A stretch of 64,000 nucleotides of DNA from contig JAKZES010000004.1 of the NCBI GenBank assembly GCA_022548915.1, forward strand, positions 1-64,000, read 5' to 3'. The notes below the pieces were generated by a model. It was given only the letters and a program-made list of their open reading frames with translations, made no database searches and was not told the origin of the DNA. This document shows, one piece after another, positions 10,064 to 37,737 of this stretch. The stretch comes from Verrucomicrobiaceae bacterium E54. Lineage in GTDB: Bacteria > Verrucomicrobiota > Verrucomicrobiia > Verrucomicrobiales > Akkermansiaceae. The translations under genes and the position numbers were made by a program. Every line of letters starts with the position of its first letter. The first letter of the stretch is position 1.

Positions 10064-10092
10064 GTCGTCGTGGCGGGCGGTTTGTGGGGTCT

Positions 10093-10950: not shown

Positions 10951-10974
10951 AAAAAGCCCGCCGGTGAGGGCGGG
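10951..10974 (-). terminator. Rho-independent terminator after 11007-11192
   Basis: On - strand CCCGCC-CTCACC-GGCGGG-CTTTTT. Confidence 0.75.
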
Positions 10975-11006
10975 TTGGTCGTGCTGCCGGGCGGGATTGG
11001 TTTCGA

Positions 11007-18489: not shown

Positions 18490-19751
18490 AGCCCGGATAC
18501 AAGCAGACCGAGGTCGGGGTGATTCCGGAGGATTGGGAGACGCCGTCCATTGGAGACTACCGACCATTTGTCACCAGCGGATCTCGTGGGTGGGCTGCTT
18601 ACTATGAGGAATACGGGTCGCCATTCATCAGGATCACCAATCTGAACCGGGGATCGATCCACTTGGATCTCGATGACCTCCGCTTCGTCGCTATTCCGCC
18701 TCAAAACACCGAAGGTCAGCGAACTGTCCTGCAGGACGACGATCTGCTCATTTCGATCACAGCTGACATTGGCATCGTCGGCATCGTGTCCCACGAATTG
18801 CCTAAACCGGCCTACATAAATCAGCACATCGCCTTGGTGCGATTCGATCGGGGGCGGATATCACCGAAGTATGTGACCTACTTCTTGGGGTCCGAACGAA
18901 CCCAACGGATCTTCCGGGCATTGACTGACTCGGGAGCAAAAGCAGGGATGAATCTCACGACCGTTCAGCAAATTCGCTTTGCGGCACCACCCACCCTCGC
19001 CGAACAAGAAGCCATCGCTGCGGCCTTGAGCGATGCGGATGCCCTCATCGACTCCCTGGAGCAACTCATCGCCAAGAAACGCCTCCTCAAACAAGGGGCC
19101 ATGCAGGACCTCCTCACCGGCAAGAAACGCCTCCCGGGGTTTGAGGGGGAGTGGGAGGTGAAGACGTTGGGCGAGCTGTTCACGTTCAAGAATGGCCTCA
19201 ATAAATCGAAGGAGTTTTTTGGGCACGGGACCCCTATCGTAAACTACATGGACGTATTCGAGGCACCGATGCTCACCCCCCAGCGACTCATCGGCAAAGT
19301 GTCACTGACCCGAAGCGAGTTGAACGCCTACGACGTCCGCTCCGGAGACGTCTTTTTCACCAGAACTTCGGAGACCCCGGATGAGGTTGGGATGGCGGCG
19401 GTCATTACAGGAGAGCCAGTCGACACCGTTTTCAGCGGATTCGTTCTTCGGGCTCGGCCCAAACAAGATGTGTTCGACAATGCATACAAAGCTTTTTGTT
19501 TCCGGACTCCAGAGGTTCGGGATCAGATCGTGGCGAAAGCCTCTTACACGACTCGGGCACTGACGAATGGGCGGGCTCTGTCCACCGTGAAGATCAGGGT
19601 GCCCGAGAAATCAGAACAAACCGCCATCGCCGCGATCCTGAGCGACATGGACGCCGAGCTCGCCGCCCTCGAAGCCAAGCTGGCCAAGGCCCGCCAGGTG
19701 AAGCAGGGCATGATGCAGGAACTCCTCACCGGAAAGACGAGGTTGATTTAG
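18486..19751 (+). CDS. hsdS: Type I restriction specificity subunit
   Basis: Two target-recognition halves, each followed by EQxAIAAxLSDxDAxxxxLExxxxKxRxxKQGxMQxLLTGKxRL; GTGA overlap with DUF1016 gene. Confidence 0.93.
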   Translation: MKPGYKQTEVGVIPEDWETPSIGDYRPFVTSGSRGWAAYYEEYGSPFIRITNLNRGSIHLDLDDLRFVAIPPQNTEGQRTVLQDDDLLISITADIGIVGIVSHELPKPAYINQHIALVRFDRGRISPKYVTYFLGSERTQRIFRALTDSGAKAGMNLTTVQQIRFAAPPTLAEQEAIAAALSDADALIDSLEQLIAKKRLLKQGAMQDLLTGKKRLPGFEGEWEVKTLGELFTFKNGLNKSKEFFGHGTPIVNYMDVFEAPMLTPQRLIGKVSLTRSELNAYDVRSGDVFFTRTSETPDEVGMAAVITGEPVDTVFSGFVLRARPKQDVFDNAYKAFCFRTPEVRDQIVAKASYTTRALTNGRALSTVKIRVPEKSEQTAIAAILSDMDAELAALEAKLAKARQVKQGMMQELLTGKTRLI

Positions 19752-19763
19752 CCCGCCACCGAT

Positions 19764-21440
19764 ATGCCTGCTAAGAAATCATCTAACCGGCTGGTGAAGA
19801 AGGCCACGACGAAGAAGGCCACGACGAAGAAGGCCACGGCGAAGAAAGCCACGGCGAAGAAGGCCACGGCGAAGAAAGCCACGGCGAAGAAGGCCACGGC
19901 GAAGAAGGCCACGGCGAAGAAGACCCCTCCGAAGAAGGTAACCCCGAGATCCGTTCTTAAAATGACGGCCGCGGAGGCTCGGTCATTCTTCCTGAAGGGA
20001 GAGAGCTACTGCAATCTTGACCTCCCGCCGTATTTCGACTTCGAGCCGATCCTTCGCAACGTCGATGCCATTCTTTCCGGGAGGCTCCTCAGCTCGATGT
20101 GGTCGAACAGCCCTTGCGAAGTCGATGCGATCAGCCACACGATCCTGAACAATAAGGATGGTCGTTACGCCTGGCGTCCAATCCAGCTTACGCATCCAGC
20201 ACTCTACGTGTCCCTCGTTCATCACCTGACCGATCCGGCCAACTGGACGAAGATTCTCGACGCGTTCAAGCGATCCCGTCGTGATCCGCAGATCCACTGC
20301 TTGAGCCTTCCGGTCGAGTCTCGAAATGCCCAGCAAGACAAGGCAGCTCAGGTCCTCCAATGGTGGGAAGATGTGGAGCAGCGGTCCATTCAGCTTTCGA
20401 TCGAGTATGAGTATCTCTTTCACGCCGACATCACGGACTGCTACGGATCGATCTACACTCATTCGCTGAGTTGGGCCTTGCACGGTCGAGCGGTCATGAA
20501 GCAACCGGTGAACAGGAACAACCGGGTCCTCATCGGTAACATCATCGACCGACACCTCATGGACATGAGTCACGGTCAGACGAACGGGATTCCTCAGGGG
20601 TCGGTGCTGATGGATTTCATTGCCGAGCTTGTCCTCGGCTATGCTGACCGCCTCCTCAGAATCAAAATCCGCCGAGCCGGAATTCGGGACTACCAGATTC
20701 TTCGCTATCGCGACGACTACCGAATCTTTACCAATCACCCAACCGAGGGGGAAGAGATACTCAGGCTTCTCACCGAGACGATGCATTTCCTCGGAATGAA
20801 GCTCAGCCCCGCCAAGACCGGCCCTTCGTCCAGCGTCGTCGCCGGGTCGGTGAAGCCGGACAAGATTGACTGGATCACGCAGATGGAATTCAACCGCAAC
20901 CTCCAGAAGCACCTGTTGCTCATCCACGGGTTTTCACGGAAGCACCCGAACTCAGGCAGCTTGATCCGGGCTCTGGTCAAGTTCTACCGCAGGATCCATA
21001 GGCGGAAAAAGGCGATAGCGGACCCTAAGCCGATGATTGCTTTGACTGTCGATATTGCAGCAAACAACCCAAGGGCTTACTCCATCACTGCCGCGATCAT
21101 CAGCAAGCTACTGAGCAACATTGGCAAGGGGGTCGAGGTCAACGACCTGTTGGGCAAGATCAGGAACCGCTTCGAGCGTGTCCCGAACACCGGCCACCTT
21201 CAGATTTGGTTGCAGCGGATCTCCCACTTTCATCAAGGGGCGGCCATCGGATACACGGAACCCATCTGCAAATTGCTTGGGGGCGGGAATCCGACGATTT
21301 GGAAGAACGACTGGATCCAGTCGCGACGATTGAAGGCGGCAATCGATCCAAAACGCATCGTGGACAAGAAAGTCGTCAGGAAGACGCACCTTGTGATTGC
21401 CCTGGATGAAGTTCAGTTGTTTAACCCGTATGCAACGTGA
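19764..21440 (+). CDS. Reverse transcriptase (Abi/UG/DRT-like group suspected) with lysine-rich N-terminal repeat
   Basis: HADITDCYGSIYTHSLSWALHG, GQTNGIPQGSVLMDFIAELVLGYAD, catalytic YRDDYRIF, GMKLSPAKT; long helical C-terminus without an evident maturase/endonuclease domain. Confidence 0.88.
   Translation: MPAKKSSNRLVKKATTKKATTKKATAKKATAKKATAKKATAKKATAKKATAKKTPPKKVTPRSVLKMTAAEARSFFLKGESYCNLDLPPYFDFEPILRNVDAILSGRLLSSMWSNSPCEVDAISHTILNNKDGRYAWRPIQLTHPALYVSLVHHLTDPANWTKILDAFKRSRRDPQIHCLSLPVESRNAQQDKAAQVLQWWEDVEQRSIQLSIEYEYLFHADITDCYGSIYTHSLSWALHGRAVMKQPVNRNNRVLIGNIIDRHLMDMSHGQTNGIPQGSVLMDFIAELVLGYADRLLRIKIRRAGIRDYQILRYRDDYRIFTNHPTEGEEILRLLTETMHFLGMKLSPAKTGPSSSVVAGSVKPDKIDWITQMEFNRNLQKHLLLIHGFSRKHPNSGSLIRALVKFYRRIHRRKKAIADPKPMIALTVDIAANNPRAYSITAAIISKLLSNIGKGVEVNDLLGKIRNRFERVPNTGHLQIWLQRISHFHQGAAIGYTEPICKLLGGGNPTIWKNDWIQSRRLKAAIDPKRIVDKKVVRKTHLVIALDEVQLFNPYAT
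19797..19916 (+). repeat. 15-bp tandem repeat (8 units) encoding (KKAT[T/A])8
   Basis: AAGAAGGCCACG(A/G)CG-type units in tandem within the RT CDS. Confidence 0.93.
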
Positions 21441-21524
21441 AGCTGGCGCATCATGGTTGATGTTGGCTGGCTTACTCAGGAAACGCGGTTCGGGCATGAT
21501 ACCGGAGGCGATTCTTTGTGAGCT

Positions 21525-22232
21525 ATGGTGACTGAGGAAACGACTGGCTGGCAGGGCATTGGGGAACTGCTCGACGACTGGATGAGGCTCGACGCCACGA
21601 TCGCCCGGTCGAATCACGCCGAGGGCCGGTCGTTCAATCCGCTACCTTGGCTCAAGATCGGCGAGACCATGCACAGTCGGATCCTCGGCGACTTTCTCGA
21701 CCCACAAGGAAGTCACGGACAGGGAGCGATATTTCTGATGCCTTTTCTTGAGGAGTTGGGAGTGCCCGAACCGCAAGCCGGCATCTGGCACGTAACGGTG
21801 GAGACCGGTCGTGTGGACATCCTGATCTGGAGGAATGAGCCGAGGAGAAGTGCGGTGATCATCGAGAACAAGGCGAAGGATGCGGTCGACCAGTTGAACC
21901 AGATTTATCGGTATTGGCACCATGAGGTTTTCCTCTGGGATCCTGCAGCATGGCCGATGGGAAACCCGATGGCGATCGAGGAGCGGCGGCGCGATTTTCA
22001 CGTGGTCTATCTGCCGACCGGGAAGGACAAGGGCCCAGCCGCTCACAGTATGGAGAGGCCGCAGGGGATGGAGAAAGCGAACCCCTGGGATCGGGTCCCG
22101 TTGAAATGCACGATTATGCCGTTGGCGGACCTGATGGAACTTTGGGAGCGGGAATCCGTCGGCAAGGTGCCGCCGACAAACCATCGTCTCAATGCCTTCA
22201 TCGGCCTTTATCAGGAACTCTGGAAAAAATGA
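21525..22232 (+). CDS. PD-(D/E)XK nuclease superfamily protein (PF14281-like)
   Basis: ETMHSRILGDFLDPQGSHGQGAIFL, VETGRVDILIW, SAVIIENKAKDAVDQLNQIYRYW. Confidence 0.78.
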   Translation: MVTEETTGWQGIGELLDDWMRLDATIARSNHAEGRSFNPLPWLKIGETMHSRILGDFLDPQGSHGQGAIFLMPFLEELGVPEPQAGIWHVTVETGRVDILIWRNEPRRSAVIIENKAKDAVDQLNQIYRYWHHEVFLWDPAAWPMGNPMAIEERRRDFHVVYLPTGKDKGPAAHSMERPQGMEKANPWDRVPLKCTIMPLADLMELWERESVGKVPPTNHRLNAFIGLYQELWKK

Positions 22233-22852
22233 AAAGGGAACTTATCGACCGAGCCGGCGAAGTCTTCCATTCAATGGAGCGTTGGACTGCGTTCTATCAA
22301 ATCGAGTCACAGGTGATTCATATCATGGACCACTGGCTCCGGATCGGTGCCGAGGCTTTGAGGAAGGACTTCGAGCTCAACCCGTGCGGCTCATGGCAGT
22401 GCTCGGCTTGGGGTGGGGAGACGAGAGACACCCACTGGTATCTCAGCGGTGACGGTGAACCGGGTGAGGTGGGGATCGGACTCGGCATTGGATGGCGGGA
22501 ATTCGAGCTCCACCTTATCCATGGTGGCAATGACCAGGAAGCACGCCAGCGGGCGGTCGCAATCCTTGCCTCAGCGGAGTTCGAGCCGCTCCGTATTTTG
22601 ACGGGATCGCCCGAGGTGCGTGCGGAACGCAGGAAATACGGCAGCATCCTTTCGATTCGGAACTTCAATCCTTTTGACGAGGTTCGCGATCCTGCGATGA
22701 GGGCAAGGATGATCGCTTGGCAGGCGGGGCAGGCCACGGAGCGGTTCGTGGAACGCACGTCGGCCAGGATCCGGCAGATCACGGATGATCTCATGATCAC
22801 CCGGTTGGTTCGCGAACTGAACATTCGGGTTGGAAAAGGGCCTTCCGCTTAG
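22229..22852 (+). CDS. Hypothetical protein translationally coupled to PD-(D/E)XK nuclease
   Basis: ATGA overlap with upstream stop; 207-aa ORF MKRELIDRAGEVFHSMERWTAFYQIES. Confidence 0.65.
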   Translation: MKRELIDRAGEVFHSMERWTAFYQIESQVIHIMDHWLRIGAEALRKDFELNPCGSWQCSAWGGETRDTHWYLSGDGEPGEVGIGLGIGWREFELHLIHGGNDQEARQRAVAILASAEFEPLRILTGSPEVRAERRKYGSILSIRNFNPFDEVRDPAMRARMIAWQAGQATERFVERTSARIRQITDDLMITRLVRELNIRVGKGPSA

Positions 22853-22865
22853 AAGCAAGGAGTCG

Positions 22866-23807
22866 ATGAGCACGAAGTTGATCACCACAGGTGTTTGGAA
22901 GGAGCTCACCAAGGCAGCGAAATCCGCCCGGAAGCCCTGCCATGTGGCGGTTGCGTACTTTTCGGAAGGAGCGGATCGTTTGCTGCCGCTGCCCAGTGGC
23001 AGTCGGCTGGTGGTGAATGCGAACGAGCGGGTCGTAGCGGCGGGCCAGACGTGTCCGACGACTCTCGAAAGGTTGCTTGAGAAGGGGGTGAAGATCTACA
23101 GCGTGGAGAACCTTCACGCGAAGGTCTTCGTGATCGGTGAAACCGCTTATGTCGGTTCCAGCAATGCTTCATGGAATTCGGAACGCCGTTTGGTGGAAGT
23201 GGTGGTCCGTTCCAACGACGCCGGCGTTGTCCGAAGTGCACGGAAACTTGTGGAGGGACTCTGCCTCAGCGAGCTGACTCCCGGAGCGTTGGCGAGGTTG
23301 GCGGGTATTTATGTCCCACCGAAGTTCCCGCACGGCAAAGGCAGGAAGCGGGTGGCCGGTCAAACCACCGTTGCGGCTGAGATTGCGCCGCTGAGAATCG
23401 TCAGGCTGAGGGACGTCGAGTGGTCGGAGTGGGACCAAGAGAACATCGACAAGGGTGAAGCCGAGGCAGAACGGAGTCGTGAACACGGCGAAGGGTTTCG
23501 TCTGGATCACTTCAAGTGGGCCGGAAACTGTGCGGTCCAGGAGGGGGACGCGGTGATCCGAATTCTCACCGAACGGGATGGGCGGGCCTTCGTCTACCCT
23601 CCGGCGAGTGTCATCAAGAAGGACGTGCGGAAGAGAGATGGGAAGCTGGTGAGCTACCTGTTTGTGGAGGGGCCTGATCGCCGTCGACGGCGGTTTTCGA
23701 CGTGGGTCCGGAAACTGGGCAGTGCTGCCGAGAAGAAGGTCGGGCGTAGCGGCGTCGTGAAGGATGCCGCCCTGGTGCGGAAGCTCTTGAGATCGTGGGA
23801 AGGCTGA
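22866..23807 (+). CDS. Phospholipase D-like (HKD) domain protein
   Basis: LHAKVFVIGETAYVGSSNASWNS (HxK...GSxN). Confidence 0.75.
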   Translation: MSTKLITTGVWKELTKAAKSARKPCHVAVAYFSEGADRLLPLPSGSRLVVNANERVVAAGQTCPTTLERLLEKGVKIYSVENLHAKVFVIGETAYVGSSNASWNSERRLVEVVVRSNDAGVVRSARKLVEGLCLSELTPGALARLAGIYVPPKFPHGKGRKRVAGQTTVAAEIAPLRIVRLRDVEWSEWDQENIDKGEAEAERSREHGEGFRLDHFKWAGNCAVQEGDAVIRILTERDGRAFVYPPASVIKKDVRKRDGKLVSYLFVEGPDRRRRRFSTWVRKLGSAAEKKVGRSGVVKDAALVRKLLRSWEG

Positions 23808-23873
23808 CCGGTGATGTCTTGCAGCGATGGACATCGACGAAGGGGAAGGGATCGGGAAAATGAATGAACGGCT

Positions 23874-24182
23874 ATGAGTGAAGGCATGGAAACACCGGAT
23901 TCGCTGTGGGAAGTCTGCACGGCCAACAAGCGGCTCGTGCCGATGCCGGACCCTTGGAACCAGCTCTACGGCATGCTCAAGAACACCCGGCGGAAGCCGT
24001 CCGGCGGCTGGGAACCACCGCTGCCGCTCATTCTCGCCGCATGGGATGAATCCATGCCGATCCAGAAGCAGCTGCGATTCAAGGAGCACCTGAAGTGGGC
24101 GGAGGGCCAGGGACAACTGCAGGAAGTCGGAGCGTTCCTCCGCTCGCTGTCGGAGGAGCAGTGGTGCCATTTCGGGGAATAG
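23874..24182 (+). CDS. Small hypothetical protein
   Basis: 102-aa ORF in operon orientation. Confidence 0.55.
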   Translation: MSEGMETPDSLWEVCTANKRLVPMPDPWNQLYGMLKNTRRKPSGGWEPPLPLILAAWDESMPIQKQLRFKEHLKWAEGQGQLQEVGAFLRSLSEEQWCHFGE

Positions 24183-24224
24183 CGAGGCCCGGGAAAGTGT
24201 TTTTCAGCACGATTTCACCAGATA

Positions 24225-24692
24225 TTGGTTGCAAAGGGTGTCAAAAAGCACCCTATTCTCTCCAGCGAGGCGATGTCATCCCTTCCAGCCAAGGCCTCGA
24301 AAGCCGTCCGTGAGACCATCATCGAAGCCCTGGGGAATCCCGGGCAGAGGTTTCTCGACCGGGCGGGCAGTTCGGGCAACTGGCTGGCCAAGTGGGGCAT
24401 CACCGAAGCGACGATTTACGAGGAGTTGATCGCCGGGCTGCAATGCTCCGATCATCTCTTTCTGAAGAAACGACAACCTGGGAAACCGCAGGCCTACCAG
24501 TGCATCCTCGATTGTCCGGAAGACGGCGACGACTACCCTGCGATCGTGATCCACGTCACCCTTGCACCGCGGGGTGAGCCGCCAAGGGTCCGCGTGGCCG
24601 TCCATCCGAGCGATACTGTTCGCACCCTGCCAGCGCTTCCCTATCCCGATGAAACCGATGAAACCGATGAAAACGACCAAGCCAAGAACTGA
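24225..24692 (+). CDS. Hypothetical protein, candidate toxin partner of downstream MqsA-like gene
   Basis: Small ORF overlapping downstream MqsA-like antitoxin gene; start may be ATG at 24273. Confidence 0.55.
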   Translation: MVAKGVKKHPILSSEAMSSLPAKASKAVRETIIEALGNPGQRFLDRAGSSGNWLAKWGITEATIYEELIAGLQCSDHLFLKKRQPGKPQAYQCILDCPEDGDDYPAIVIHVTLAPRGEPPRVRVAVHPSDTVRTLPALPYPDETDETDENDQAKN

Positions 24693-26010
24693 CGCCTCTC
24701 AGGGTATCCCCTGCTTCGAGTGTGAGGAGGGAACCTTGGTTCCGACTCTCTGTGACCACCAGGTGGAAGTCGCCGGGGGGAAGGTGCTGACCATTCCCGA
24801 GGTCCCCATGCTGGTGTGCGACCAATGCGGGGACCGGGTCACGGGAGACGAAGGCAACGCACGCATCAACGCATTCCTCGACAAGGCCCTCAACGCCATC
24901 AGTCCCGAGGAGGTGCAGCAGTTTCTCGCCAAATACGGCCTGACGCAGAAGGAGGCCGCCCAGATCACCGGCTACGGCGAGAAGAACATTTCCCGCTGGG
25001 CCTCGGGGCGCGCCCGTCCCTCGGAGTCCGTCAGCAACATCCTGCGTCTGCTGCTCAGTGATGAGGAGGCGTTCGAGCGACTTCGTCGCAAGGATTTCTC
25101 GTCCCGGCCCAAGGTCAGCTACCCCAGGGAACACCGGCAGCCGGACGCCAACGAAAAGAAGGTCTTGTCGGCCATCGACTATCCCAGGCTCGTGGAGATG
25201 GAGTTGGTTCAGGCCACTGCCAGCCCGAAGGAGAAACGGAGCGAAGTCTGCAAACTGACCAAGTCCGGGGACCTGAATGAGCTGGAGGTCCACATGACAC
25301 GGCGCTGGCAGCAGATTGCCGCCTTCAAGGACACCCGCCAGAAGTTCAACCCGGTCAGTGCGGGCCTCTGGAGCTACATCGGTGAACAGAGGGCCGCCAG
25401 CATCGCCACCGAGCCCTACGATCGGAAAAAGCTGCACAAGGCGGTCAAGTCACTGCGTGAGCTGACCCAGCATCCGCTCGCCGACGTTGCCGACCAGGCA
25501 CGCGACATCCTGGCAAAGGCGGGCGTGGCGCTCGTCTTTGTTCCCATCATGAAGGACTGTGCCCTACGCGGCTCCACGCGGCTGCTGACGCCATCCAAGG
25601 CCCTGATCATCCATGGCCTGAAGTTCCGCAGTCTTTCCCAGTTCTGGATCATCTTGTTCCACGAGATCGCCCACCTCCTTCTCCACATCAAGTCACCGAA
25701 GGACGTCTTCACCGATTACGAGGATCAGGATCAGGACGAGCGTGAGCAGAATGCGGACCGATGGGCCTACGACACCCTCGCATCCCTCGATCGGGAACTG
25801 GAATTCAGGTCCAAGTACCCCAAGCCTACCATCTGGCAACTGGAGAGCTACGCCGCAGAGATCAAGGTTCACCCGGCGATTGCCGCCGAGGTTTTCAACA
25901 AGCGTGCCGGGGAAGACGTCATCTCCTATGCCTACCTGAAGAAAAAGAAGCTGTTCCCACAGCTTAGTGAGATCGAGAGGAAGGCCCTGATGACGAGCGC
26001 CTCGACCTGA
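24649..26010 (+). CDS. MqsA-type (YgiT zinc finger + HTH) antitoxin fused to ImmA/IrrE-like metallopeptidase domain
   Basis: CFECEEGTLVP...MLVCDQCGD, HTH FLAKYGLTQKEAAQITGYGEKNISRWASGRARPS, C-terminal FHEIAHLLLH (HExxH) with NADRWAYDTL. Confidence 0.82.
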   Translation: MKPMKPMKTTKPRTDASQGIPCFECEEGTLVPTLCDHQVEVAGGKVLTIPEVPMLVCDQCGDRVTGDEGNARINAFLDKALNAISPEEVQQFLAKYGLTQKEAAQITGYGEKNISRWASGRARPSESVSNILRLLLSDEEAFERLRRKDFSSRPKVSYPREHRQPDANEKKVLSAIDYPRLVEMELVQATASPKEKRSEVCKLTKSGDLNELEVHMTRRWQQIAAFKDTRQKFNPVSAGLWSYIGEQRAASIATEPYDRKKLHKAVKSLRELTQHPLADVADQARDILAKAGVALVFVPIMKDCALRGSTRLLTPSKALIIHGLKFRSLSQFWIILFHEIAHLLLHIKSPKDVFTDYEDQDQDEREQNADRWAYDTLASLDRELEFRSKYPKPTIWQLESYAAEIKVHPAIAAEVFNKRAGEDVISYAYLKKKKLFPQLSEIERKALMTSAST

Positions 26011-26228
26011 ACGGGACGGAAGTCAGTCCCGGCCGGGGGAAACGGGAGACCGATGAGTAGAGGTTCCACTGGCGCAGGGGCCCGAAACACACCGCATGGA
26101 GCGGAATTTCGTTCACCGGTCGCGGAGACGATGAGCCAGGGGAGAATGACCGCCAAACCCGGAGCCACCGGCGGTGGCGAAGATCGGGTTGCCTCCCGAA
26201 TCCGGAAGGGTTAGGATCGGCTCACGCG

Positions 26229-26471
26229 ATGAGCAAGAAAACGCTGGATCAGGAGAGCCTCGAGATCAGGGAGCTGGAAGCACACTTCCCGACCCTTTCG
26301 GCCGAAGCGTTTTCAGCGGCGGCGAAGCGGTCGCTCGCAGCGGGCGAAAGCGTGACCCAGGCCTTTGGCACCAAGGTGTTCCGAATTTCCCCTGGCGGCG
26401 GACGAGTGGTGGTGAAGACGATCCCCGAGCCGCTGGCGGTTGAGGCCGGCTCGAAGATCCGGATCCGGTGA
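26229..26471 (+). CDS. Small hypothetical protein, putative zeta-toxin partner
   Basis: 80-aa ORF overlapping zeta-like start by 4 nt. Confidence 0.6.
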   Translation: MSKKTLDQESLEIRELEAHFPTLSAEAFSAAAKRSLAAGESVTQAFGTKVFRISPGGGRVVVKTIPEPLAVEAGSKIRIR

Positions 26472-27208
26472 GCGACTCCCGGCCAAGGGTGCGAATGTTC
26501 GCCGGGCCCAACGGCTCCGGGAAGAGTTCACTGAAGGAAGTCCTTCCGGAGAAGCTTCAGGGGATTTACCTGAACCCCGACGAGATCGAGGCTACGCTCA
26601 GGCGGGAGCGACGGCTCGATCTCGCCGCCATCCAGCTCGCCGGGGCATCCGGGAAGATCCTTGAGCGGCTTGGCTCGCTTCGCCGTCCTGGATTCACGGG
26701 ATTTGCCGACAGGATTTCGCACGGTGAATCGGAGGATGTGCTCGAGGTGGAACCCGAGGCTGTGGACGCGTATTTCGCGTCGGCCCTCGTCGAGTGCCTG
26801 CGGGAGGAATTGATGGAACGCCGGGTGAGTTTTACGTTTGAGACCGTCATGTCACACGAGTCGAAGGTGGACGTGCTGGTGCGGGCCAAGGACCTGGGAT
26901 ACCGGAGCTACCTCTACTACGTGGCAACCGAGGATGTGGAGATCAACGTCTCGCGGGTGGCCAACCGGGTGGCTCTCGGAGGACACCCGGTACCTGAGGC
27001 CAGCATCCGCAGTCGCTACGACCGGTCGCTCGGGCTGCTCTTTGACGCGATCGTTGCGAGCAACAGAGCCTACATTTTCGATAACTCGGGCGATGGTTCG
27101 CGTCGTTCATGGATCGCCGAGGTGACGGACGGCGAGGAAATCGAACTCAAGACCTCGACAATTCCGTATTGGTTCAAGGAGGCAGTGTTGGACAAGATCG
27201 GCCAGTGA
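26468..27208 (+). CDS. Zeta-toxin family P-loop protein
   Basis: VRMFAGPNGSGKSSLKEVL, GIYLNPDEIEATL, FTFETVMSHESKVDVLVRAKDLGYRSYLYYVAT. Confidence 0.85.
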   Translation: MSDSRPRVRMFAGPNGSGKSSLKEVLPEKLQGIYLNPDEIEATLRRERRLDLAAIQLAGASGKILERLGSLRRPGFTGFADRISHGESEDVLEVEPEAVDAYFASALVECLREELMERRVSFTFETVMSHESKVDVLVRAKDLGYRSYLYYVATEDVEINVSRVANRVALGGHPVPEASIRSRYDRSLGLLFDAIVASNRAYIFDNSGDGSRRSWIAEVTDGEEIELKTSTIPYWFKEAVLDKIGQ

Positions 27209-30200
27209 GCGACATCGGCAAGCCAGAGCGAGAGACGCAGGACCGGGTGATCGCCCTGTTCGTGGACGAGCTCGGCTACACCTACCTTGGCGACTGGTCG
27301 GACCGGCCGGCGAACAGCAACGTCGAGGAGGGCCTGCTGACGGCCAATCTCACCCGCCGCGGATATTCGCCGGCGGCGATCAATGGGGCGCTGGAGAAGT
27401 TGCAGAGGGAGGCGGGCAACAAGAGCCGGAAGCTCTACGACAACAACGAGGCGGTCTATGGACTGCTCCGCTACGGGGTGCAGGTGAAGACCGAGGCCGG
27501 CAAGGAGACGGAGACGGTCCACCTGATCGACTGGGAGGGCGGCGAGAACGACTTCGGCATCGCCGAAGAGGTCACGCTCAAGGGGGATCACGAACGGCGA
27601 CCGGACCTGGTGCTCTACGTGAATGGGCTCGCCCTCGGAGTGATCGAGCTGAAGAACAGCCGGGTGAGCATTGGCGATGGGATCCGCCAGCTGATCTCGA
27701 ATCAGAGGCCGGAATTCAACGACTGGTTCTTCAGCACCGTGCAGTTGGTTTTCGCCGGCAGCGACAGCGAGGGGCTGCAATACGGCACCACCGGCACGCC
27801 GGAGAAGTATTTCCTGAAGTGGAAGGAGGACGAGGAGGACGACGAAGGCTACAAGCTCGACAAGTACCTCTCGAAAATGTGCCGCAAGGACCGGCTGCTG
27901 GAGCTGATCCACGATTTCGTGCTCTTCGACGGCGGGGTGAAGAAGGTGCCGCGGGTCCACCAGTATTTCGGCGTGAAGGCCGCCCAGGAGAAGGTGAGGG
28001 CACGGGAGGGCGGCATCATCTGGCAAACCCAGGGCAGCGGGAAGAGTATCGTCATGGTCCTGCTGGCGAAGTGGATCCTGGAGAACCGGCACGACGCCCG
28101 GGTGGTGGTGGTGACCGACCGCGACGAGCTCGACAAGCAGATCGAGAAGGTGCTCAAGCAGGCCGGGGCGGTGCCCGAGACCGACGAGGTGAGGGCCACC
28201 AGCGGTCACGACTTGCGGGAGAAGCTCGGCCAGGCGAATCCGCGGCTGATCTGCTCGCTGGTCCACAAGTTCGGCGTGGCGGGCGTTGACGACTTCGACG
28301 AGTTCATCAAGGAACTCGAATCGCAGCCCAGCAAGACGGTTGGGGAGGTCTTCGTCTTCGTCGATGAATGCCACCGCACCCAGAGCGGGAAGCTGCACAA
28401 GGCGATGAAGGCGATGATGCCGAACGCGGTGTTCATCGGCTTCACGGGCACGCCGCTGCTGAAGAAGGACAAGGCGACCACGCTGGAGGTCTTCGGCCGC
28501 TACATCCACACCTACAAGTTCAGCGAGGCAGTCGAGGACGAGGTGGTCCTGGATCTGATCTACGAGGCTCGCGACATCGACCAGGTGCTGGGCTCCGAAG
28601 AGAAGATCGACGCGTGGTTCGAGGCCAAAACCAAGGGCCTGAACCAGTGGCAGCGGAATGAGCTGAAGAAGAAGTGGGGCACCATGCAGAAGGTGCTCAG
28701 CTCACGCTCGCGGATGGAGAAGGTCGTGGCCGACATCCTCTTCGATTTCAGCACAAAGGCCCGGCTCAGCAGCGAGCGGGGCAATGCGATGCTGGTGGCC
28801 GGCAGCATTTACGAGGCCTGTTGCTACTACAACCTCTTCCGCAAGACGCCGCTGAAGGACAAGTGTGCGGTGGTGACCTCCTATGACCCGAAGGCCGGTG
28901 ATGTGACACGGGAGGACACCGGGGCCGACTCGGAAACCGACCGGCAGACGATCTACCATACCTACACCGAGCTGCTGGAGGACGTCACCCCCAAGGCCGG
29001 CAAGAGCAAGACCGAAACCTATGAGGACGAGGCCAAGCGGCTTTTCACCGACGAGCCCGCCCGGATGAAGCTGCTGATTGTCGTCGACAAGCTGCTGACC
29101 GGCTTCGACGCCCCGAGCTGCACCTACCTCTACATCGACAAGTCGATGCAGGATCACGGCCTGTTCCAGGCAATCTGCCGCACCAACCGGCTCGACGGCG
29201 ACGACAAGGACTTCGGCTTCATCGTCGACTACAAGGATCTCTTCAAGAAGGTGGAGGACGCGATCTCGGTCTATTCCGAGGAACTCGACCACTCGGACGG
29301 CGGACCCGATCCCGAGGTGTTGCTGAAGGAACGTCTGAAGAAGGGAAGGGAGCGGCTGGACAACGCGATCGAGCAGTTGGCCCTGCTGTGTGAGCCGGTG
29401 GAGGCCCCGAAGGACGAGTTGCAGCACATTCGCTACTTCTGCGGCAACACCGAGATCCCCAAGGACCTGAAGGACCGGGAGCCGCAACGGACCGCCCTCT
29501 ACAAAGGTGCCGCCGGTCTGCTGCGGGCCTATGCGAACATCGCCGATGACCTCGACGCCGCCGGCTACGACGCGGCGGCCCGGAACCGGATCAAGGACCG
29601 GCTCGACCACTATGTGAAGCTCCGCGACACGATCCGCAACGCCAGCGGCGAGTCGATCGACCTCAAGGCCTACGAGGCCGACATGCGGCACCTGATCGAC
29701 ACCTACATCGAGGCACGGGACCCCAAGAAGATTTCGCCCTTTGACGACATGCCGCTGCTCGACCTGATCGTGAAGAGCGGCATTTCCAAGGCCATCGGCG
29801 GCAGGCTGAAGAATCTCAAGGGCAACAAGGACGCGATCGCCGAGACCATCGAGAACAACGTCCGCAGCAAGATCATCAAGGAGCAGCTGAACGATCCGGC
29901 GTTTTTCGCCAAGATGTCGAAGCTGCTCGACGAGATCATTGCCGAGCGGAAGCGGAAGGCCGTGGCCTACGAGAAATACCTCCAGAAGATCGCCGCCCTG
30001 GTGGGCAAGGTGCAGGCCGGGCACGAGGATGACGTTCCCGAGGCCCTGAAGAAGAGCAGGGCCGTCCGGGCGATCTACAACAACCTGCTCGACAAGACCG
30101 GCGGCAACCCAAGCGAATCCCCGGCTGCCTATTCCACCGACAAGGACGCGGCCCTGCAACGAGCGCGGGACATCGATGCCGAAGTGCGGCGGGTGAAGCG

Positions 30201-30327
30201 GGCGGACTTCCGCGGCAACCAGGCGAAGGAGAACGAGATCAAGGCGGCGATCTTCCCGCTTCTCGGTGACGACATCGACGAGGTGAACCGGATTTTCGAG
30301 ATCATCAAGCAGCAGGCGGAATACTGA
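27205..30327 (+). CDS. hsdR: Type I restriction endonuclease subunit R
   Basis: RRPDLVLYVNGLALGVIELKNS, IIWQTQGSGKSIVMVLLAKWI, FVDECHRTQSG, GFTGTPLL; GTG start overlapping zeta stop. Confidence 0.95.
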   Translation: MSDIGKPERETQDRVIALFVDELGYTYLGDWSDRPANSNVEEGLLTANLTRRGYSPAAINGALEKLQREAGNKSRKLYDNNEAVYGLLRYGVQVKTEAGKETETVHLIDWEGGENDFGIAEEVTLKGDHERRPDLVLYVNGLALGVIELKNSRVSIGDGIRQLISNQRPEFNDWFFSTVQLVFAGSDSEGLQYGTTGTPEKYFLKWKEDEEDDEGYKLDKYLSKMCRKDRLLELIHDFVLFDGGVKKVPRVHQYFGVKAAQEKVRAREGGIIWQTQGSGKSIVMVLLAKWILENRHDARVVVVTDRDELDKQIEKVLKQAGAVPETDEVRATSGHDLREKLGQANPRLICSLVHKFGVAGVDDFDEFIKELESQPSKTVGEVFVFVDECHRTQSGKLHKAMKAMMPNAVFIGFTGTPLLKKDKATTLEVFGRYIHTYKFSEAVEDEVVLDLIYEARDIDQVLGSEEKIDAWFEAKTKGLNQWQRNELKKKWGTMQKVLSSRSRMEKVVADILFDFSTKARLSSERGNAMLVAGSIYEACCYYNLFRKTPLKDKCAVVTSYDPKAGDVTREDTGADSETDRQTIYHTYTELLEDVTPKAGKSKTETYEDEAKRLFTDEPARMKLLIVVDKLLTGFDAPSCTYLYIDKSMQDHGLFQAICRTNRLDGDDKDFGFIVDYKDLFKKVEDAISVYSEELDHSDGGPDPEVLLKERLKKGRERLDNAIEQLALLCEPVEAPKDELQHIRYFCGNTEIPKDLKDREPQRTALYKGAAGLLRAYANIADDLDAAGYDAAARNRIKDRLDHYVKLRDTIRNASGESIDLKAYEADMRHLIDTYIEARDPKKISPFDDMPLLDLIVKSGISKAIGGRLKNLKGNKDAIAETIENNVRSKIIKEQLNDPAFFAKMSKLLDEIIAERKRKAVAYEKYLQKIAALVGKVQAGHEDDVPEALKKSRAVRAIYNNLLDKTGGNPSESPAAYSTDKDAALQRARDIDAEVRRVKRADFRGNQAKENEIKAAIFPLLGDDIDEVNRIFEIIKQQAEY

Positions 30328-31043
30328 TGAGCACCCGCCTCCAGATCGGCGAACTCGAGGTGGAGGTGATCCGCAAGGACATCAAGAACGTCCACCTGAG
30401 CGTGCTGCCACCGGTCGGCAAGGTCCGGCTGTCCGCTCCGGAGCACGTGAAGATCGACACTCTGCGGGTCTATGTGGTGTCCCGGCTGCAGTGGATCCGC
30501 AAGCAGCAGGAGAAGCTCAAGGGTCAGGACCGGGAGACTCCCCGGGACTACGTGGAGCGTGAGAGCCACTATCTGTGGGGAAAGCGTTATCTGCTGACGA
30601 TCGATGAAAAGGATGAGCCCCCGAAGGTCGAGCTGACCCATCGGCAGATGATCCTCCAAGTGCGTCCTGGGGCGACGCAGGCGAAGCGGGAGGAGGTTCT
30701 GGCTTCATGGTATCGGGACCGGTTGCGGGAGGCGGTGCCGCCGCTCATCGCCCGCTGGGAGCCGATGCTCGGCGTGAAGGTGAAGAGGTTCTTCATCCAG
30801 CACATGAAGACGAAGTGGGGCGGATGCAGCCCGGAGCGGGGAACGGTCCGGCTGAACAGCGAGCTGGCGAAAAAGCCACCGGAGTGCCTCGAATATCTCG
30901 TGGTGCATGAAATGGTCCACCTCCTCGAGCCGACCCACAACGATCGGTTCCTCGGCCTCATGGACCGCTTCATGCCGAACTGGCGGAGCCGGCGGGCGAC
31001 ACTGAACAGCCTACCGGTGCGGCACGAGACGTGGGGGTATTGA
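30327..31043 (+). CDS. YgjP/SprT-like (DUF45) M48-type metallopeptidase
   Basis: TKWGGCSPERGTVRLNSELAKKPPECLEYLVVHEMVHLLEPTHNDRF (HExxH). Confidence 0.85.
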   Translation: MSTRLQIGELEVEVIRKDIKNVHLSVLPPVGKVRLSAPEHVKIDTLRVYVVSRLQWIRKQQEKLKGQDRETPRDYVERESHYLWGKRYLLTIDEKDEPPKVELTHRQMILQVRPGATQAKREEVLASWYRDRLREAVPPLIARWEPMLGVKVKRFFIQHMKTKWGGCSPERGTVRLNSELAKKPPECLEYLVVHEMVHLLEPTHNDRFLGLMDRFMPNWRSRRATLNSLPVRHETWGY

Positions 31044-31078
31044 TGGGGGAGGCCAGTAGAGAATTTCCAGTATTAAGC

Positions 31079-31528
31079 ATGAAACATCCACGGGATTGGA
31101 GTCCCAACACCCTCAATTACATTGCCCTGATTCCTGCGGTGATTCTGATCTACTCTCTCATGGAAGGCGAGTTGTTCGTGCGGGCCGCAGTGGCCATCTT
31201 GGCCGGTTTTCTTGGTCCGCTCTTCCTATGCCTTGCCAGCTTGTTGTGTGGTGTCTTGTTTGATCATATTCTTGGGCAAAACACAGCTCAGGCAAGAACG
31301 ACGAAGGGTGAGCTTTCTGGATTCTTCCGCTCGTTCATCGGTCCATTCTACCTCGTGCTGATCCTCTGCATGGCCCTGCCTGTGCTTCCGAAGAACCGTG
31401 CCACACACCGCGAGGCACTCATGGATCGGGCCATCCAGAGTTTGCTGGAGGACGATGGTCCGCGGTTCAGTCCGGTCTCTATCAACGCACTGAAGGCCGA
31501 GATGCGAGAGATGGACAGCGGGGAGTAG
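31079..31528 (+). CDS. Hypothetical membrane protein
   Basis: Several hydrophobic segments; ORF open from 31031. Confidence 0.55.
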   Translation: MKHPRDWSPNTLNYIALIPAVILIYSLMEGELFVRAAVAILAGFLGPLFLCLASLLCGVLFDHILGQNTAQARTTKGELSGFFRSFIGPFYLVLILCMALPVLPKNRATHREALMDRAIQSLLEDDGPRFSPVSINALKAEMREMDSGE

Positions 31529-31754
31529 GAGGGCCAGGAAGTAGACGCTTTGGCATGACCGCAGCGAGCGACTCATTCGTTCATAGCGATTAGAATGACA
31601 GGAATGGATCAATGGGTTGCAGCGCGGCCCGCGTAGGCGGCTTGTTGGTCGGTAACCGCGAGGGGAGGAGTTGGAGCATTGGCTTGCCAAATACCGATCA
31701 GCCACTGCTCCAGTGGGGCGGTAGGCCCTGACAATTTCGGATGAGTCAGGGAGC

Positions 31755-31890
31755 GGGACCAGGCTCCGACTCTCTACGGGTTTGCTCCAGTCGGTCTCTG
31801 CACGGCTGCGCCGTGCAGCAGCCCTCCTCCGCAAACCGTAGAGAGTCACGAGCGGTCCCTCTGATAGCTGCCGGCTATCGCCGGCAGCTA
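31755..31890. other. Multi-hairpin element beside gpII-like rep gene (candidate replication origin)
   Basis: GACTCTCTACGGGTTTGC (31768-31785)/GCAAACCGTAGAGAGTC (31831-31847) enclosing CTGCACGG-CTGCG-CCGTGCAG (31798-31818); outer GGGACC/GGTCCC; adjacent TAGCTGCCGG-CTATCG-CCGGCAGCTA (31865-31890). Confidence 0.5.
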
Positions 31891-31953
31891 CGCTTGACCC
31901 TATTCCTCGTTGATGGGGAGGATGGTGGGTCTGCTGGTAGGAGGGTTAGGGAT

Positions 31954-32985
31954 TCAGGCTGGGTCGTCGGCGTAGAGGTCTGCGACCAAGCCTTGGGGAG
32001 GCCACTCGGGCGGAAAAATCTCCGCGAAGTCGATTTCAAGGTCGTTGAGCTGTGTGGCAGCAATGGCCGCAAGCATCCTCCTCCCCGTATCGCCCCTTGT
32101 GTAATTCTGCCTACAGAAGTTCGAGAAACCACTGAGCAGATCCACACCGTCGGTCAACGTAACGCCCTGTCGGGCGAGGTCGGCCAGAAGGGTTACCATG
32201 TAGGCCTGCAGGCGGCTAAGGCGGAAGTGGCCCTGCGGGCAGCGGGCCTGCAGGGAGCGGACGGAGGGAAACCCGAGCATGATCCCTCGGAATGCCTCGT
32301 AGCAGCGGTCGAACTGCAGCCAGGTCGGGAATTCGTCGTCGCCCGGACCGAGCAGCTCCTTCAGCACATGCTTGCGGAGTTTGATCTCAAAGCGGACCAC
32401 ATCGCCGGGAATGTGGTCTCTCTCAAGACGCTTGTCGTAGGCCCCGATCTCGAGGTTGGTGCCTCGGAGCTGGATCCCCGACCGGTCCCCTCGAACCTTC
32501 CATTCGACCGCATCCGCCTGGATCCGTGGGTGGCGGGCGTTGCGGAAGCAGGTGAAGAATTGTTGGGCGGAAACGCCTGGCCACCGGACCTGAAGGGTGA
32601 GGTGGAGATACACGAACTGGAGGGGGATGGAAGTCAGATGGACCGGAGAGATCTCGGAGACCAGCTCGGCCACGCGTGCAAGGGCTCGGTCGAGCTCCGC
32701 CTGTGAGGTGGGCAACCGGGCGTTATGACCGTAGAGCAGGTTGGGGAGGCTGACCTTGAAGCCGTCGATGACGTCGTTGTAGCCATAGACGGTCAGGTAT
32801 TTCTTGGGGGCAATCATCCGCTTGAGGACGAACTTGGAACGGTGTTCACCCTGGTAAGTGACGGGTTTCTGGGGCAGGAACTCCCATCCCTCATGGTTGT
32901 CCAACTGGGACTCCATGCGGTTGAGGGGAATGACCCCATTCCGGCAGGGGGAGGGTCCAAAGTTGGCGATGGTTGTATCGTTCAT
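31954..32985 (-). CDS. Putative phage/plasmid replication protein (filamentous-phage gpII/CRI-like)
   Basis: SLPNLLYGHNARLPTSQAELDRALARVAELV, QLRGTNLEIGAYDKRLE, VVRFEIKLRKHVLKELLG arrangement resembles gpII-type Rep proteins. Confidence 0.55.
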   Translation of the reverse strand: MNDTTIANFGPSPCRNGVIPLNRMESQLDNHEGWEFLPQKPVTYQGEHRSKFVLKRMIAPKKYLTVYGYNDVIDGFKVSLPNLLYGHNARLPTSQAELDRALARVAELVSEISPVHLTSIPLQFVYLHLTLQVRWPGVSAQQFFTCFRNARHPRIQADAVEWKVRGDRSGIQLRGTNLEIGAYDKRLERDHIPGDVVRFEIKLRKHVLKELLGPGDDEFPTWLQFDRCYEAFRGIMLGFPSVRSLQARCPQGHFRLSRLQAYMVTLLADLARQGVTLTDGVDLLSGFSNFCRQNYTRGDTGRRMLAAIAATQLNDLEIDFAEIFPPEWPPQGLVADLYADDPA

Positions 32986-33141: not shown

Positions 33142-34242
33142 TCAGACGGCGACCTCGGTTTCGACTTCACCGGGGCGGCGGAAGATGTAGGGCATCTCAC
33201 GGACACGCATTTCGTCAGGCCAGCGGCCCCAGTAGCCGATCCGGCCGCCGCCGAGACGGAGCTCACGACCGTCGTCGATTTGCCTTGCCCCCAACCCTTG
33301 AATGAAGAAGGGGATACGCAGGATTCGGCACTGGGTTTGTAAACTGCGGACCCAATCCAGATTGAACGGGCGTGCGTACTCGCCGGATTCGCCACCCACT
33401 ACCACCCAGTCGATGCCGGTGAGATCGACCACCACTTTTTCCACGAGTGGTTCAAAACAGACGGCTTTGAACCCGGGGACATTCCGCAGTTCATCGACAA
33501 GGTAGGCGGTGGCTTGGTTCGTCACCGAGGTCATCGACATAAGGTTGCCCGGCCAGAGCTTGCCGTGTTCGGTCCGAAGCCAAGCAGCGAAATCTGCCAT
33601 GCGGCTGGGCCGCTTCGTCATCCAGATCCAGTTGTGGCGGGAGCCGGGCTCGCTGTCGACGTTGTGGATGATCTCTTCACTGAGAAAGGAGAACGGGATT
33701 GCCTCGCTCAACGCGTCGCCCATGGACGAGATGAGGATCGTCCGGGACAGGTTGCTGAGCCAGGGCTTACCACCGCGAGCCTGTCCGCGAAGATCCGACC
33801 AAAGGCTGGCGTTTTCCATCCGCCCGGGCATGGGGGTGACGTTCTCGAAGATCGGCAAACGTTCTTTGTCACCCGTGGCATTGGAAGCCACAAACCTGGA
33901 GTCGTGATCGGCAATCTTGACGCCGGCGAAGCAGCGGAAGGGCTCAAGAATCCACCGCTCGAACCAAGAATAGTGGATCTTGGGAAACTCTTCGTTCAGG
34001 CGGTCGATGATTTGATACCGAGCATGCAGTATCGAAGTTCCGGTTTGGTAGGATGCCAAAACGCGTTCGACGCGGGTACGGAGTTCGTCGGCATGCATAG
34101 AAATGCGCTGTCCGATACCCGAAACAAGACCCGGGATGATTTCGGATGGGTGCGGCCACAACTCGCAGCCGTCGCATCCGACGATGGGGTTCACAGTATT
34201 GTCACAGATGGGGATTCTGGTTTGTCTTGGTAGAGTATTCAT
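33142..34242 (-). CDS. DUF5131 (phage Gp37/Gp68-like) family protein
   Basis: NPIVGCDGCELWP, WIWMTKRPSRMADFAAWL, LMSMTSVTNQATAYLVDELRNVPG, VGGESGEYARPFNLDWVRSLQTQC. Confidence 0.78.
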   Translation of the reverse strand: MNTLPRQTRIPICDNTVNPIVGCDGCELWPHPSEIIPGLVSGIGQRISMHADELRTRVERVLASYQTGTSILHARYQIIDRLNEEFPKIHYSWFERWILEPFRCFAGVKIADHDSRFVASNATGDKERLPIFENVTPMPGRMENASLWSDLRGQARGGKPWLSNLSRTILISSMGDALSEAIPFSFLSEEIIHNVDSEPGSRHNWIWMTKRPSRMADFAAWLRTEHGKLWPGNLMSMTSVTNQATAYLVDELRNVPGFKAVCFEPLVEKVVVDLTGIDWVVVGGESGEYARPFNLDWVRSLQTQCRILRIPFFIQGLGARQIDDGRELRLGGGRIGYWGRWPDEMRVREMPYIFRRPGEVETEVAV

Positions 34243-34551
34243 TTCGTTTCGTTGGTTAGTGCCCGCGGGACGACGCTGTGCGCCATGGAGAGGCAATCAG
34301 CCAATTGCTGGTGGGTGTCCCTAAGGCGGGACAGTCCTCTCCCCGGCGGCTTTAGGTCCGCCCTCGTCGAGCCAAGTGTGAGGGCTTCAGCCCTCGGTAA
34401 TCTCCTTAGTGGCACTCGGGACACGGGGGGCGCTGCCCCCGGTCCGTCGTGATCTCGATCATCAAAAAGGGCGCTTCCGAAGCGGACCCTGGATCCACAC
34501 ATTTCCCAGTGGAGGGGATCTCACTGTTGGCCCGTTTGCCGGGCATCATCA

Positions 34552-34752
34552 TTACTCCGGAAGGTAGTCCTCCCGGGATCTCAACCAGGCCTCCACGCTG
34601 GGGCGACTGAACCTCACGGACCGTCTCTTCCCCCTGGGGAGGTTGATGACGGGCAATCCGTGATCGCGGATCAGCACCTCGATGCGTTCGGGCCGGATAC
34701 GGAGCCAACGGGCGATTTCGCGCCGAGTCAGCAGCCTGTCTGGTCTTTCCAT
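34552..34752 (-). CDS. Excisionase/MerR-like HTH protein
   Basis: LLTRREIARWLRIRPERIEVLIRDHGLPVINLPRGKRRSVRFSRPSVEAWL. Confidence 0.68.
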   Translation of the reverse strand: MERPDRLLTRREIARWLRIRPERIEVLIRDHGLPVINLPRGKRRSVRFSRPSVEAWLRSREDYLPE

Positions 34753-34935
34753 ACCATTGCTCCGGACACGCAGTGCAGCCCACCCCAACCGCGGGGAGGG
34801 CCTTCTGCTGATTCCGGGGATTTGGAGGCATGGAAATCACAGTGACAGAGGTCCCCTACGCCCGGAAGTTGAAGAGGTCAAAAGAAAACACAGAAAAACT
34901 TATGTGCCGAGGCCCCATTCGTGCTATTTTACCGC

Positions 34936-35296
34936 CGTGAGCCGCTACAAACCATTTAGTGTCAGTCTTCTGCCCGAACGGATCGAGATGATCGAAGCCC
35001 GTGCGAGGGAGCTTGGGCTTTCCAAGTCGAAGTACTTGCAGGCACTCGTCGATGCCGACATCGATGTCGGCCTGCTGGACTGCACCGTTGACGCCAAAGG
35101 CGGGAAGCCGGTGGTTACATTGAAGGACGGGGTGAGCGTGGTCGTGCTGGACAAGGCCGCGGTCGAGTCGTTGAGTGTGGACCTAATCGAGAATGCGGTT
35201 CGCACCCTGGGTCGCATCTACCCGGATCTGAGGATGAGCTCGCTGGCGAATCCCATCCGTAAGACGGCCACCCAAGTCGTGAAGGAGAAGCGATGA
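34936..35296 (+). CDS. Small RHH-like protein upstream of integrase
   Basis: FSVSLLPERIEMIEARARELGLSKSKYLQALVD; GTG start; overlaps integrase start by 4 nt. Confidence 0.6.
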
Positions 35297-36537
35297 GCCA
35301 AAAGACGGGAAAGCCCTACAAGATCATCAAAGACGGTAGCGTCTCGGTGAGAATCTACCGGAACTTCATGGCTGGGAAGTTCCGCTTTCAAGTCGCCTGG
35401 AACGAAGGTGGTCGCACCATCGCCAAGACCCGGACCAAGGAGGCAGACGCCATCGACCTGGCAGAGAAAGTGGCCGCGAGGCTGGCGGATCACGGTAGCG
35501 CGAAGAAGCAGGTGGTCTCGGGCCGCAGCTACCAGGCACTGCGCCGGCTGCAGGACCTTGCCGACGGTGACGTTCACGCCCTGCTGTCCGAGCTGGAAGC
35601 TGCGAAGAAGCACCTCGGCCAGGCCAACTGGATCGAAGCGGCACGATTTTGGAAGATGCACGCACCTGAGAATTTCAAGGAGAGGATGGTCTCCGAGGTG
35701 TTCGAGGAATACATGGAGCTCATCGCCGACAAGCCGCAGAAGGCCCGAAGCGGTATCCGCTCCAAGGTGAAGAAGTTCACCGATCGGTTCGGTGGCGAAC
35801 TCATCGGGCTGGTGACCACGAAGGACTTCGAGAAGTGGTTCCGTCAGCTACCGGGCACGAAGAACTACGCCAACAAGGTCCGGGCCGAGCTGGTGACCTT
35901 TTTCCGGAAGGCCCAGGTCTGGGGCTACCTACCGGAAGGGGAAGTCGTCCCCGCCAAGATCGCACCCCACCGGCTTGAGAAGAAGGAGCCGGCAATTTTC
36001 AGCGTCGAGAAGGCCCAGGAGGTTCTCGGCAAGGTCCGGGACGACTGCGTGCCGTATGTGGCGATTGGGCTCTTCGCCGGCCTGCGGCCATTCGAGCTCG
36101 CCTGCCCGGGTGAGACTCGCTCCCTTCGCTGGGAGGACATCGATTTCGAGAAGGGCTACATCAAGGTCCGGGCCGAGGTGGATGGAAAGAACCGCATCGC
36201 CCGTTGGGTGAAGATGAGCGCGAACCTGATGGAATGGCTGCTGCCGTATCGCAAGCTCGAGGGCAAGGTGGCGATGACCCGGGCCGCCGTGATCGTGAGC
36301 AAGGACCTGCGGGACAAGGGCGTGATCAAGGATTGGCCATGCGACGTCATGCGCCACTCGTTCTGCAGCTACCTGCTGGCCAAGGAGCAGAACATCGGCC
36401 TCGTCGCCGAGCAGGCCGGCAACAGCCCGGAAATGATCCGGAAGCACTACCGCCGCCCCCTGACCCAGGAGGAAGGCGAGGCCTGGTTCGAGATCCGCCC
36501 CGACCATGGGGAGGCGGAGGGAGCCGAGGTGGCGTGA
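35293..36537 (+). CDS. int: Tyrosine-type site-specific recombinase (island integrase)
   Basis: IGLFAGLRPFE, CDVMRHSFCSYLLAKEQNIGLVAEQAGNSPEMIRKHYRR; about 1.2 kb inside the right att repeat. Confidence 0.85.
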   Translation: MSQKTGKPYKIIKDGSVSVRIYRNFMAGKFRFQVAWNEGGRTIAKTRTKEADAIDLAEKVAARLADHGSAKKQVVSGRSYQALRRLQDLADGDVHALLSELEAAKKHLGQANWIEAARFWKMHAPENFKERMVSEVFEEYMELIADKPQKARSGIRSKVKKFTDRFGGELIGLVTTKDFEKWFRQLPGTKNYANKVRAELVTFFRKAQVWGYLPEGEVVPAKIAPHRLEKKEPAIFSVEKAQEVLGKVRDDCVPYVAIGLFAGLRPFELACPGETRSLRWEDIDFEKGYIKVRAEVDGKNRIARWVKMSANLMEWLLPYRKLEGKVAMTRAAVIVSKDLRDKGVIKDWPCDVMRHSFCSYLLAKEQNIGLVAEQAGNSPEMIRKHYRRPLTQEEGEAWFEIRPDHGEAEGAEVA

Positions 36538-37716: not shown

Positions 37717-37737
37717 TTCGACTCCCCTCGCCTCCAC
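37717..37737 (+). repeat. attR of island; displaced native tmRNA 3' end (followed by CA to give CCA)
   Basis: TTCGACTCCCCTCGCCTCCAC, followed by CAT so ...CTCCACCA is present. Confidence 0.93.

Follow-up and report, generated by a model that had tools for sequence, protein, structure and literature searches.

Does an island integrated in the genome of Verrucomicrobiaceae bacterium E54 encode its own replication initiator and, directly past that gene, the origin on which it acts? The question was raised by the window, i.e. the whole stretch of 64,000 nucleotides analysed here, where the initial annotation had proposed a gpII-type replication protein beside a candidate rolling-circle origin. 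The reading favoured here, and considered likely, is that of an integrative element with a Rep_trans-like initiator or relaxase and a candidate origin just downstream of rep. Island ends, an integrase, catalytic motifs, a fold resemblance, strong local structure and a partial recurrence of downstream hairpins were all computed and are presented below.

The island was 33.5 kb long (4220-37717) and inserted in the tmRNA gene between att repeats. These repeats and the integrase bore out the earlier claim of a genuine island. Ends and recombination genes were as follows:

4199-4219, plus strand, attL, 21-bp repeat inside the tmRNA gene (3865-4219), at its 3' end
37717-37737, plus strand, attR, second and identical copy of this repeat
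35293-36537, plus strand, tyrosine integrase of the island, near the right end
34552-34788, minus strand, excisionase-like HTH protein, near the right end

No further copies of the 21-bp repeat were found at up to three mismatches. Past attR the sequence read CA, just as it does at the intact tmRNA end of the relative G398 (...CCTCCACCA), which amounts to CCA continuity. With direct att repeats, an integrase and an excisionase-like gene, the locus is an integrative element at tmRNA. Beyond it, attR and a citrate synthase-like gene were separated by about 24 kb (37738-61900) of repetitive genes of secreted/PEP-CTERM-like type; in G398, the latter was found 1.5 kb past tmRNA, and the 24-kb stretch of the window is possibly a second insertion.

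The other island genes comprised three that are shared with the elements of relatives and a large block of defence genes:

6500-7303, minus strand, DUF932 protein, common to the elements of many relatives
8680-9732, minus strand, PD-(D/E)XK (PDDEXK_1) nuclease, common to relatives' elements
9504-10145, minus strand, conserved protein with motif LGLPGYSSHQ, common to relatives' elements
14780-30327, plus strand, defence cargo, including:
14780-17353, hsdM; 18486-19751, hsdS; 27109-30327, hsdR (type I RM)
17173-18489, DUF1016/YhcG nuclease (PADLOC PDC-S02)
19764-21440, AbiP2-type reverse transcriptase
21525-22232, PDDEXK_4; 22830-23807, PLD-like
24562-26010, MqsA-like antitoxin; 26468-27208, zeta-toxin-like protein

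The reverse transcriptase displayed an N-terminal KATAKK repeat tail and was located between hsdS and hsdR, while the DUF1016/YhcG nuclease separated hsdM from hsdS, and its ORF, as annotated, overlapped the end of hsdM. The MqsA-like antitoxin/HTH-peptidase protein adjoined the zeta-toxin-like protein (24562-27208), and both are possible toxin-antitoxin genes. Among the island proteins scanned, neither phage coat, morphogenesis or structural genes nor T4SS, coupling protein or conjugation genes were recognised.

The presumed initiator was encoded at:

31954-32985, minus strand, ATG start, Rep_trans/gpII-like predicted rolling-circle initiator or relaxase of 343 aa

It was adjoined by a DUF5131 (radical-SAM-like mobile pair) gene (33142-34296), and the presence of homologues near rep in L015, L102, L103 and L108 suggests that this gene is a conserved partner of rep. 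No Pfam, PHROG or NCBIfam model matched the window Rep above threshold; Rep_trans (PF02486) gave no match even at E=1, Phage_CRI (PF05144) gave none either, and no phage or plasmid homologue emerged from direct sequence searches. Relatives were gathered by profile searches of Verrucomicrobiota genomes, seeded by a single weak match and then iterated. The resulting family was composed of 46 usable loci, window included, all from Verrucomicrobiota, with named records from Verrucomicrobium sp. and Verrucomicrobiia MAGs. The family profile did not retrieve L004, a genus match interrupted by an internal stop, as a member. Scans of viral_contigs with five different queries yielded no relatives, nor did phage records. 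Two outlying relatives (L033 and L034) matched PF02486 at E about 1e-3, scoring 19-20 bits where the cut-off is 29.6.

Residues Y183, K185 and E200 were unchanged in all 46 members of the family alignment, and R198 was conserved in 45 of them. Motif III (YDKRLE, 183-188) fitted the YxKxxE pattern of Rep_trans, and motif IV (VVRFE) the W/LxRxE pattern, of which the W/L position was variable. The aspartate of motif N' was found in 41 out of 46 members and corresponded to D3 of the window protein, in an N-terminal part modelled with low confidence. More diversity was encountered at the ligand position of motif I, occupied by Asp in 33, Glu in 11 and His in two members; the window protein belonged to the His pair, its YLH departing from RxD. 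Motif II (T/SxY/ExG) had no clear match in the window protein and read TLYFG in L034. Motifs N', I, III and IV of the family are those described in the literature on Rep_trans and MOBT enzymes (PMC5714925, PMC6499999). Y183 is predicted to be the catalytic residue, and D3, H128 (replacing the usual Asp) and E200 to occupy the metal-ligand positions. Since the equivalent motif-I aspartate of RepSNJ2, D207, is nearly dispensable (PMC13107129), the histidine alone is no argument for inactivity.

Single-sequence AF2 gave a pLDDT of 38, which is why the model was built from a 4-row alignment (pLDDT 62, pTM 0.63, moderate confidence). Foldseek gave five PDB hits at E<=0.001, all of them to Rep_trans initiators 4CIJ/4CWC (probability 1.00, E 7e-6); the TM-scores of the model were low (0.32-0.46). 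The top match in a viral structure library was A0A345MNV4 (E 2.8e-7), the Inoviridae Rep_trans protein to which archaeal RepSNJ2 had been matched structurally (PMC13107129). As rolling-circle Rep_trans initiators were returned by this search, the modelled fold is Rep_trans-like (TBP-like), not HUH. The initial annotation had called for a Rep/HUH-like fold; its expectation of a rolling-circle initiator stood, that of HUH did not. The protein was treated as Rep_trans-like but not classed as a PF02486 member, because its motif I departs from the pattern and the profile threshold was not reached.

The gpII-type assignment was upheld by the motifs, the fold search and M13 gpII, which was collinear with the family over the same motifs and whose Y197, presumably the gpII nucleophile, fell on Y183; the island is nevertheless not a filamentous phage, no coat or morphogenesis gene being recognised among the proteins scanned and no relative found in viral_contigs or phage records. 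HHalign of the family against the single M13 gpII sequence gave a low probability (3.8 %), so kinship with gpII is based on the collinear order of motifs and not on this score. Rep is a divergent, previously unclassified family of predicted DNA-nicking replication initiators.

Directly past the rep stop, a series of inverted repeats extended over 31672-31890:

31755-31862, minus strand, multi-arm cruciform with nested arms and apical hairpin, candidate origin nick/binding site
31865-31875/31880-31890, no strand assigned, perfect 11-bp hairpin belonging to the candidate origin, its rep-strand loop being GATA
31726-31732/31745-31751, no strand assigned, CCCTGAC/GTCAGGG, a 7-bp inverted repeat forming the distal arm of the cluster
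31672-31684/31700-31712, no strand assigned, 13-bp, 92 % inverted repeat TGGAGCATTGGCT/AGCCACTGCTCCA, outermost arm

Two elements reported earlier, the outer GGGACC/GGTCCC pair (31755-31760/31854-31859) and the inverted repeat 31768-31785/31831-31847, were both confirmed; the inner arms read GACTCTCTACGGGTT (31768-31782) and AAACCGTAGAGAGTC (31833-31847) and continued inward. The 7-bp and 13-bp repeats had escaped the initial annotation. Two hairpins were present but longer than reported: the apical one counted 9 bp instead of 8 (31798-31806/31810-31818; loop GCA, apex GGC-GCA-GCC on the rep strand) and the separate perfect one (31865-31890) 11 bp instead of 10. As single-stranded DNA, 31720-31920 (201 nt) folded at -59.7 kcal/mol against -34.4 (sd 3.1) for its shuffles (z -8.2, 0/200 as good), and the claim of structured repeats beside the rep ORF was sustained above chance. 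Segments within 31726-31950 ranked second and third of 852 in the window by structure. Folded as RNA, the same element was just as stable (z -8.5); the 31726-31890 cluster showed no U-tract terminator and matched no Rfam family. A reading as dispersed repeat or transposon was rejected on account of its single copy in the window's genome. The cluster is probably the start site from which Rep copies or transfers the island, and is taken as the candidate origin.

According to the initial annotation, the element should be conserved in related islands, which proved partly true: downstream hairpins recurred, but about half of the loci lacked the motif that characterised them. Several of the relatives inspected first had hairpins whose apex read GCGNAGC, located on the rep strand 78-142 nt past the rep stop; this apex belongs to a known class of very stable DNA mini-hairpins. 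Within 300 nt downstream of rep, GCGNAGC was found on the rep strand in 24 out of 45 loci (35 hits, versus seven on the opposite strand), a set that includes the loci where the motif was first seen. Upstream of rep it occurred in four and six loci, and among controls in 12-13 % of genes and about 18 % of intergenic ends, equally on both strands. The corresponding p-values (binomial 3e-11 and 1e-7, Fisher 3e-5, strand bias 8e-6) are optimistic because the loci are related. The motif was mostly absent where the next gene followed rep at once, and was as frequent with a co-directional next gene (16/29) as with a convergent one (7/14). Control intergenic ends also somewhat favoured GNA-type loops (11 vs 4). 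Folding at z<-3 was observed downstream in 22 and upstream in 15 of the 46 loci, a modest difference. Globally, rep-strand hairpins capped by GCGNAGC recur downstream of rep in part of the relatives.

Individual loci were compared as well, although the window's own hairpin has no close relative. L085, L088 and L091 shared two long hairpins with nearly invariant cores and diverged flanks. Two stems common to L003 and L064, loci other than the window, displayed one compensatory change each and were 100 % paired, versus 37-63 % when slid; these compensatory pairs fell within the shuffle range (128/500), only two sequences being available. A hairpin compared by eye between L016 and L066 showed one compensated and two broken pairs and, being mixed, was left out of the support. 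The downstream regions of L080 and L031 were too diverged or tRNA-confounded for alignment.

In most large relatives examined, rep was located 0.1-3.4 kb from tRNA genes, and the DUF932, PD-(D/E)XK and LGLPG genes recurred alongside it. No tRNA att repeats were found within the relatives' stretches examined. One genome, G1034, contained two rep-bearing copies of 7.8 kb (L102:5553-13365 and L103:5466-13278) that were 99.6 % identical and adjoined different tRNAs, tRNA-Lys and tRNA-Thr, which argues that elements of this kind have moved recently. In the ORF listing for the L102/L103 stretch, no integrase was noticed.

Compared with Rep_trans proteins (PF02486; RepDE of pT181-type plasmids, Rep of pSTK1), the window Rep shares the predicted fold, the N' Asp, the YxKxxE and xRxE motifs, a single catalytic Tyr and, as a prediction here, nicking at a hairpin origin. 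It differs by remaining below the Pfam threshold, by a His in place of the motif-I Asp, by a family setting in tRNA/tmRNA-integrated islands and by a candidate origin downstream of rep. Common to M13 gpII (Phage_CRI, PF05144) are the collinear motifs xxLxGHN, RxD, YxK and RxE and a hairpin cluster beside the gene; in contrast to gpII, the protein has no Pfam match, the island has no recognised phage structural genes and the candidate origin is downstream. Origins of filamentous phages lie upstream of gene II, so the likeness to them drawn in the initial annotation holds for the hairpins beside rep but not for their position.

MOBT relaxases (NicK of ICEBs1, Orf20 of Tn916 and RelSt3 of ICESt3) are likewise Rep_trans-type enzymes of integrative elements. 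They differ from the window Rep, for which neither an HTH nor a PF02486 match was obtained and which lacks their N-terminal HTH architecture, and from the island in its lack of recognised T4SS genes and in the placement of oriT. In layout, the published system that comes nearest is Rep-Arvir (RepSNJ2, PF25227), known from archaeal viruses and plasmids; it is a distant Rep_trans relative in an integrating element, where a hairpin immediately past rep serves as the origin (PMC13107129). Rep-Arvir is archaeal, however, and has a C-terminal MarR-like wHTH fusion, whereas the window family is bacterial; no sequence relation was detected between them.

For the favoured integrative element, a possible course of events can be outlined. 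The integrase would drive excision of the island, and a hairpin or cruciform within about 31726-31890, downstream of rep, would be extruded single-stranded. Rep would then nick whichever hairpin carries the site, Tyr183 attacking the DNA and remaining attached to its 5' end, so that the 3' end would be free to act as primer for rolling-circle synthesis. Given a helper, the same nick could feed conjugative transfer.

That last step leads to a possible, if rather doubtful, alternative, in which Rep is chiefly a MOBT-like relaxase, the hairpins are its oriT and the island is mobilizable via the conjugation pore of a helper, replication being secondary. Rep_trans proteins such as NicK, Orf20 and RelSt3 act in both replication and transfer (PMC5714925, PMC6499999), the island combines integrase and att sites with an absence of recognised T4SS or phage-packaging genes, and relatives are placed at many tRNA genes. 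The defining N-terminal HTH plus PF02486 architecture is nevertheless absent from the window Rep, no coupling protein was recognised among the island proteins scanned, and the oriT of ICESt3 lies between orfK and orfJ with no comparable downstream cluster. It is unlikely that the hairpins are terminators or an RNA element unrelated to Rep. The cluster does lie in the gap between the convergent ORF 31031-31528 (plus strand) and rep (minus strand), its folding as RNA is equally good, and downstream hairpins, some with GNA-type loops, also occur at other genes; but its size and branching exceed those of a terminator, neither U-tract nor Rfam match was found, and the motif in relatives is independent of next-gene orientation and strand-biased (35:7), unlike control ends.

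A decayed filamentous prophage, of which rep and origin would be relics without current function, is very improbable. The nearest named phage protein, the endonuclease of Thermus phage Zuza27, was reached via a Rep relative (E 7e-3) and speaks for it; the intact rep ORF with its conserved catalytic residues, the lack of recognised coat or morphogenesis genes, the absence of family members from viral_contigs and phage records, and the near-identical duplicates of G1034, which argue for recent family mobility, speak against it. Least credible of all is a rolling-circle transposon, in which rep plus hairpin would by themselves constitute a small mobile unit and its end: although a tyrosine nickase beside a terminal-looking hairpin recalls IS91-type layouts, the duplicated unit of G1034 measured at least 7.8 kb and started near tRNA genes instead of rep or hairpin edges, and the window's genome has just one copy of the element.

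Should the favoured integrative element with its own initiator be confirmed, a self-encoded nickase with an adjacent origin would offer a testable mechanism for the movement of defence islands devoid of conjugation or phage genes of their own. Such islands would be annotated as immobile, as the Rep family is missed by current profile libraries. A wider reading is proposed tentatively: a so far unrecognised family of rolling-circle integrative elements may be widespread in Verrucomicrobiota, with a Rep_trans-like initiator, a downstream strand-specific GNA-triloop mini-hairpin origin, tRNA/tmRNA integration, a core of rep, DUF932, PD-(D/E)XK and LGLPG genes, and anti-phage defence cargo. Through its downstream hairpin origin, the Rep family would be linked with Rep-Arvir elements, a recent description from archaea, and the Verrucomicrobiota family, if true, would represent a bacterial parallel to their downstream origins.

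A second hairpin cluster was encountered in the same island at 10876-11025 (within 10800-11100), the top-ranked segment of the window by structure (z -7.3). It included a 14-bp stem (GCCCGGCAGCACGA), was located upstream of a minus-strand ORF (10093-10803) and may represent another origin, a leader or an attenuator.
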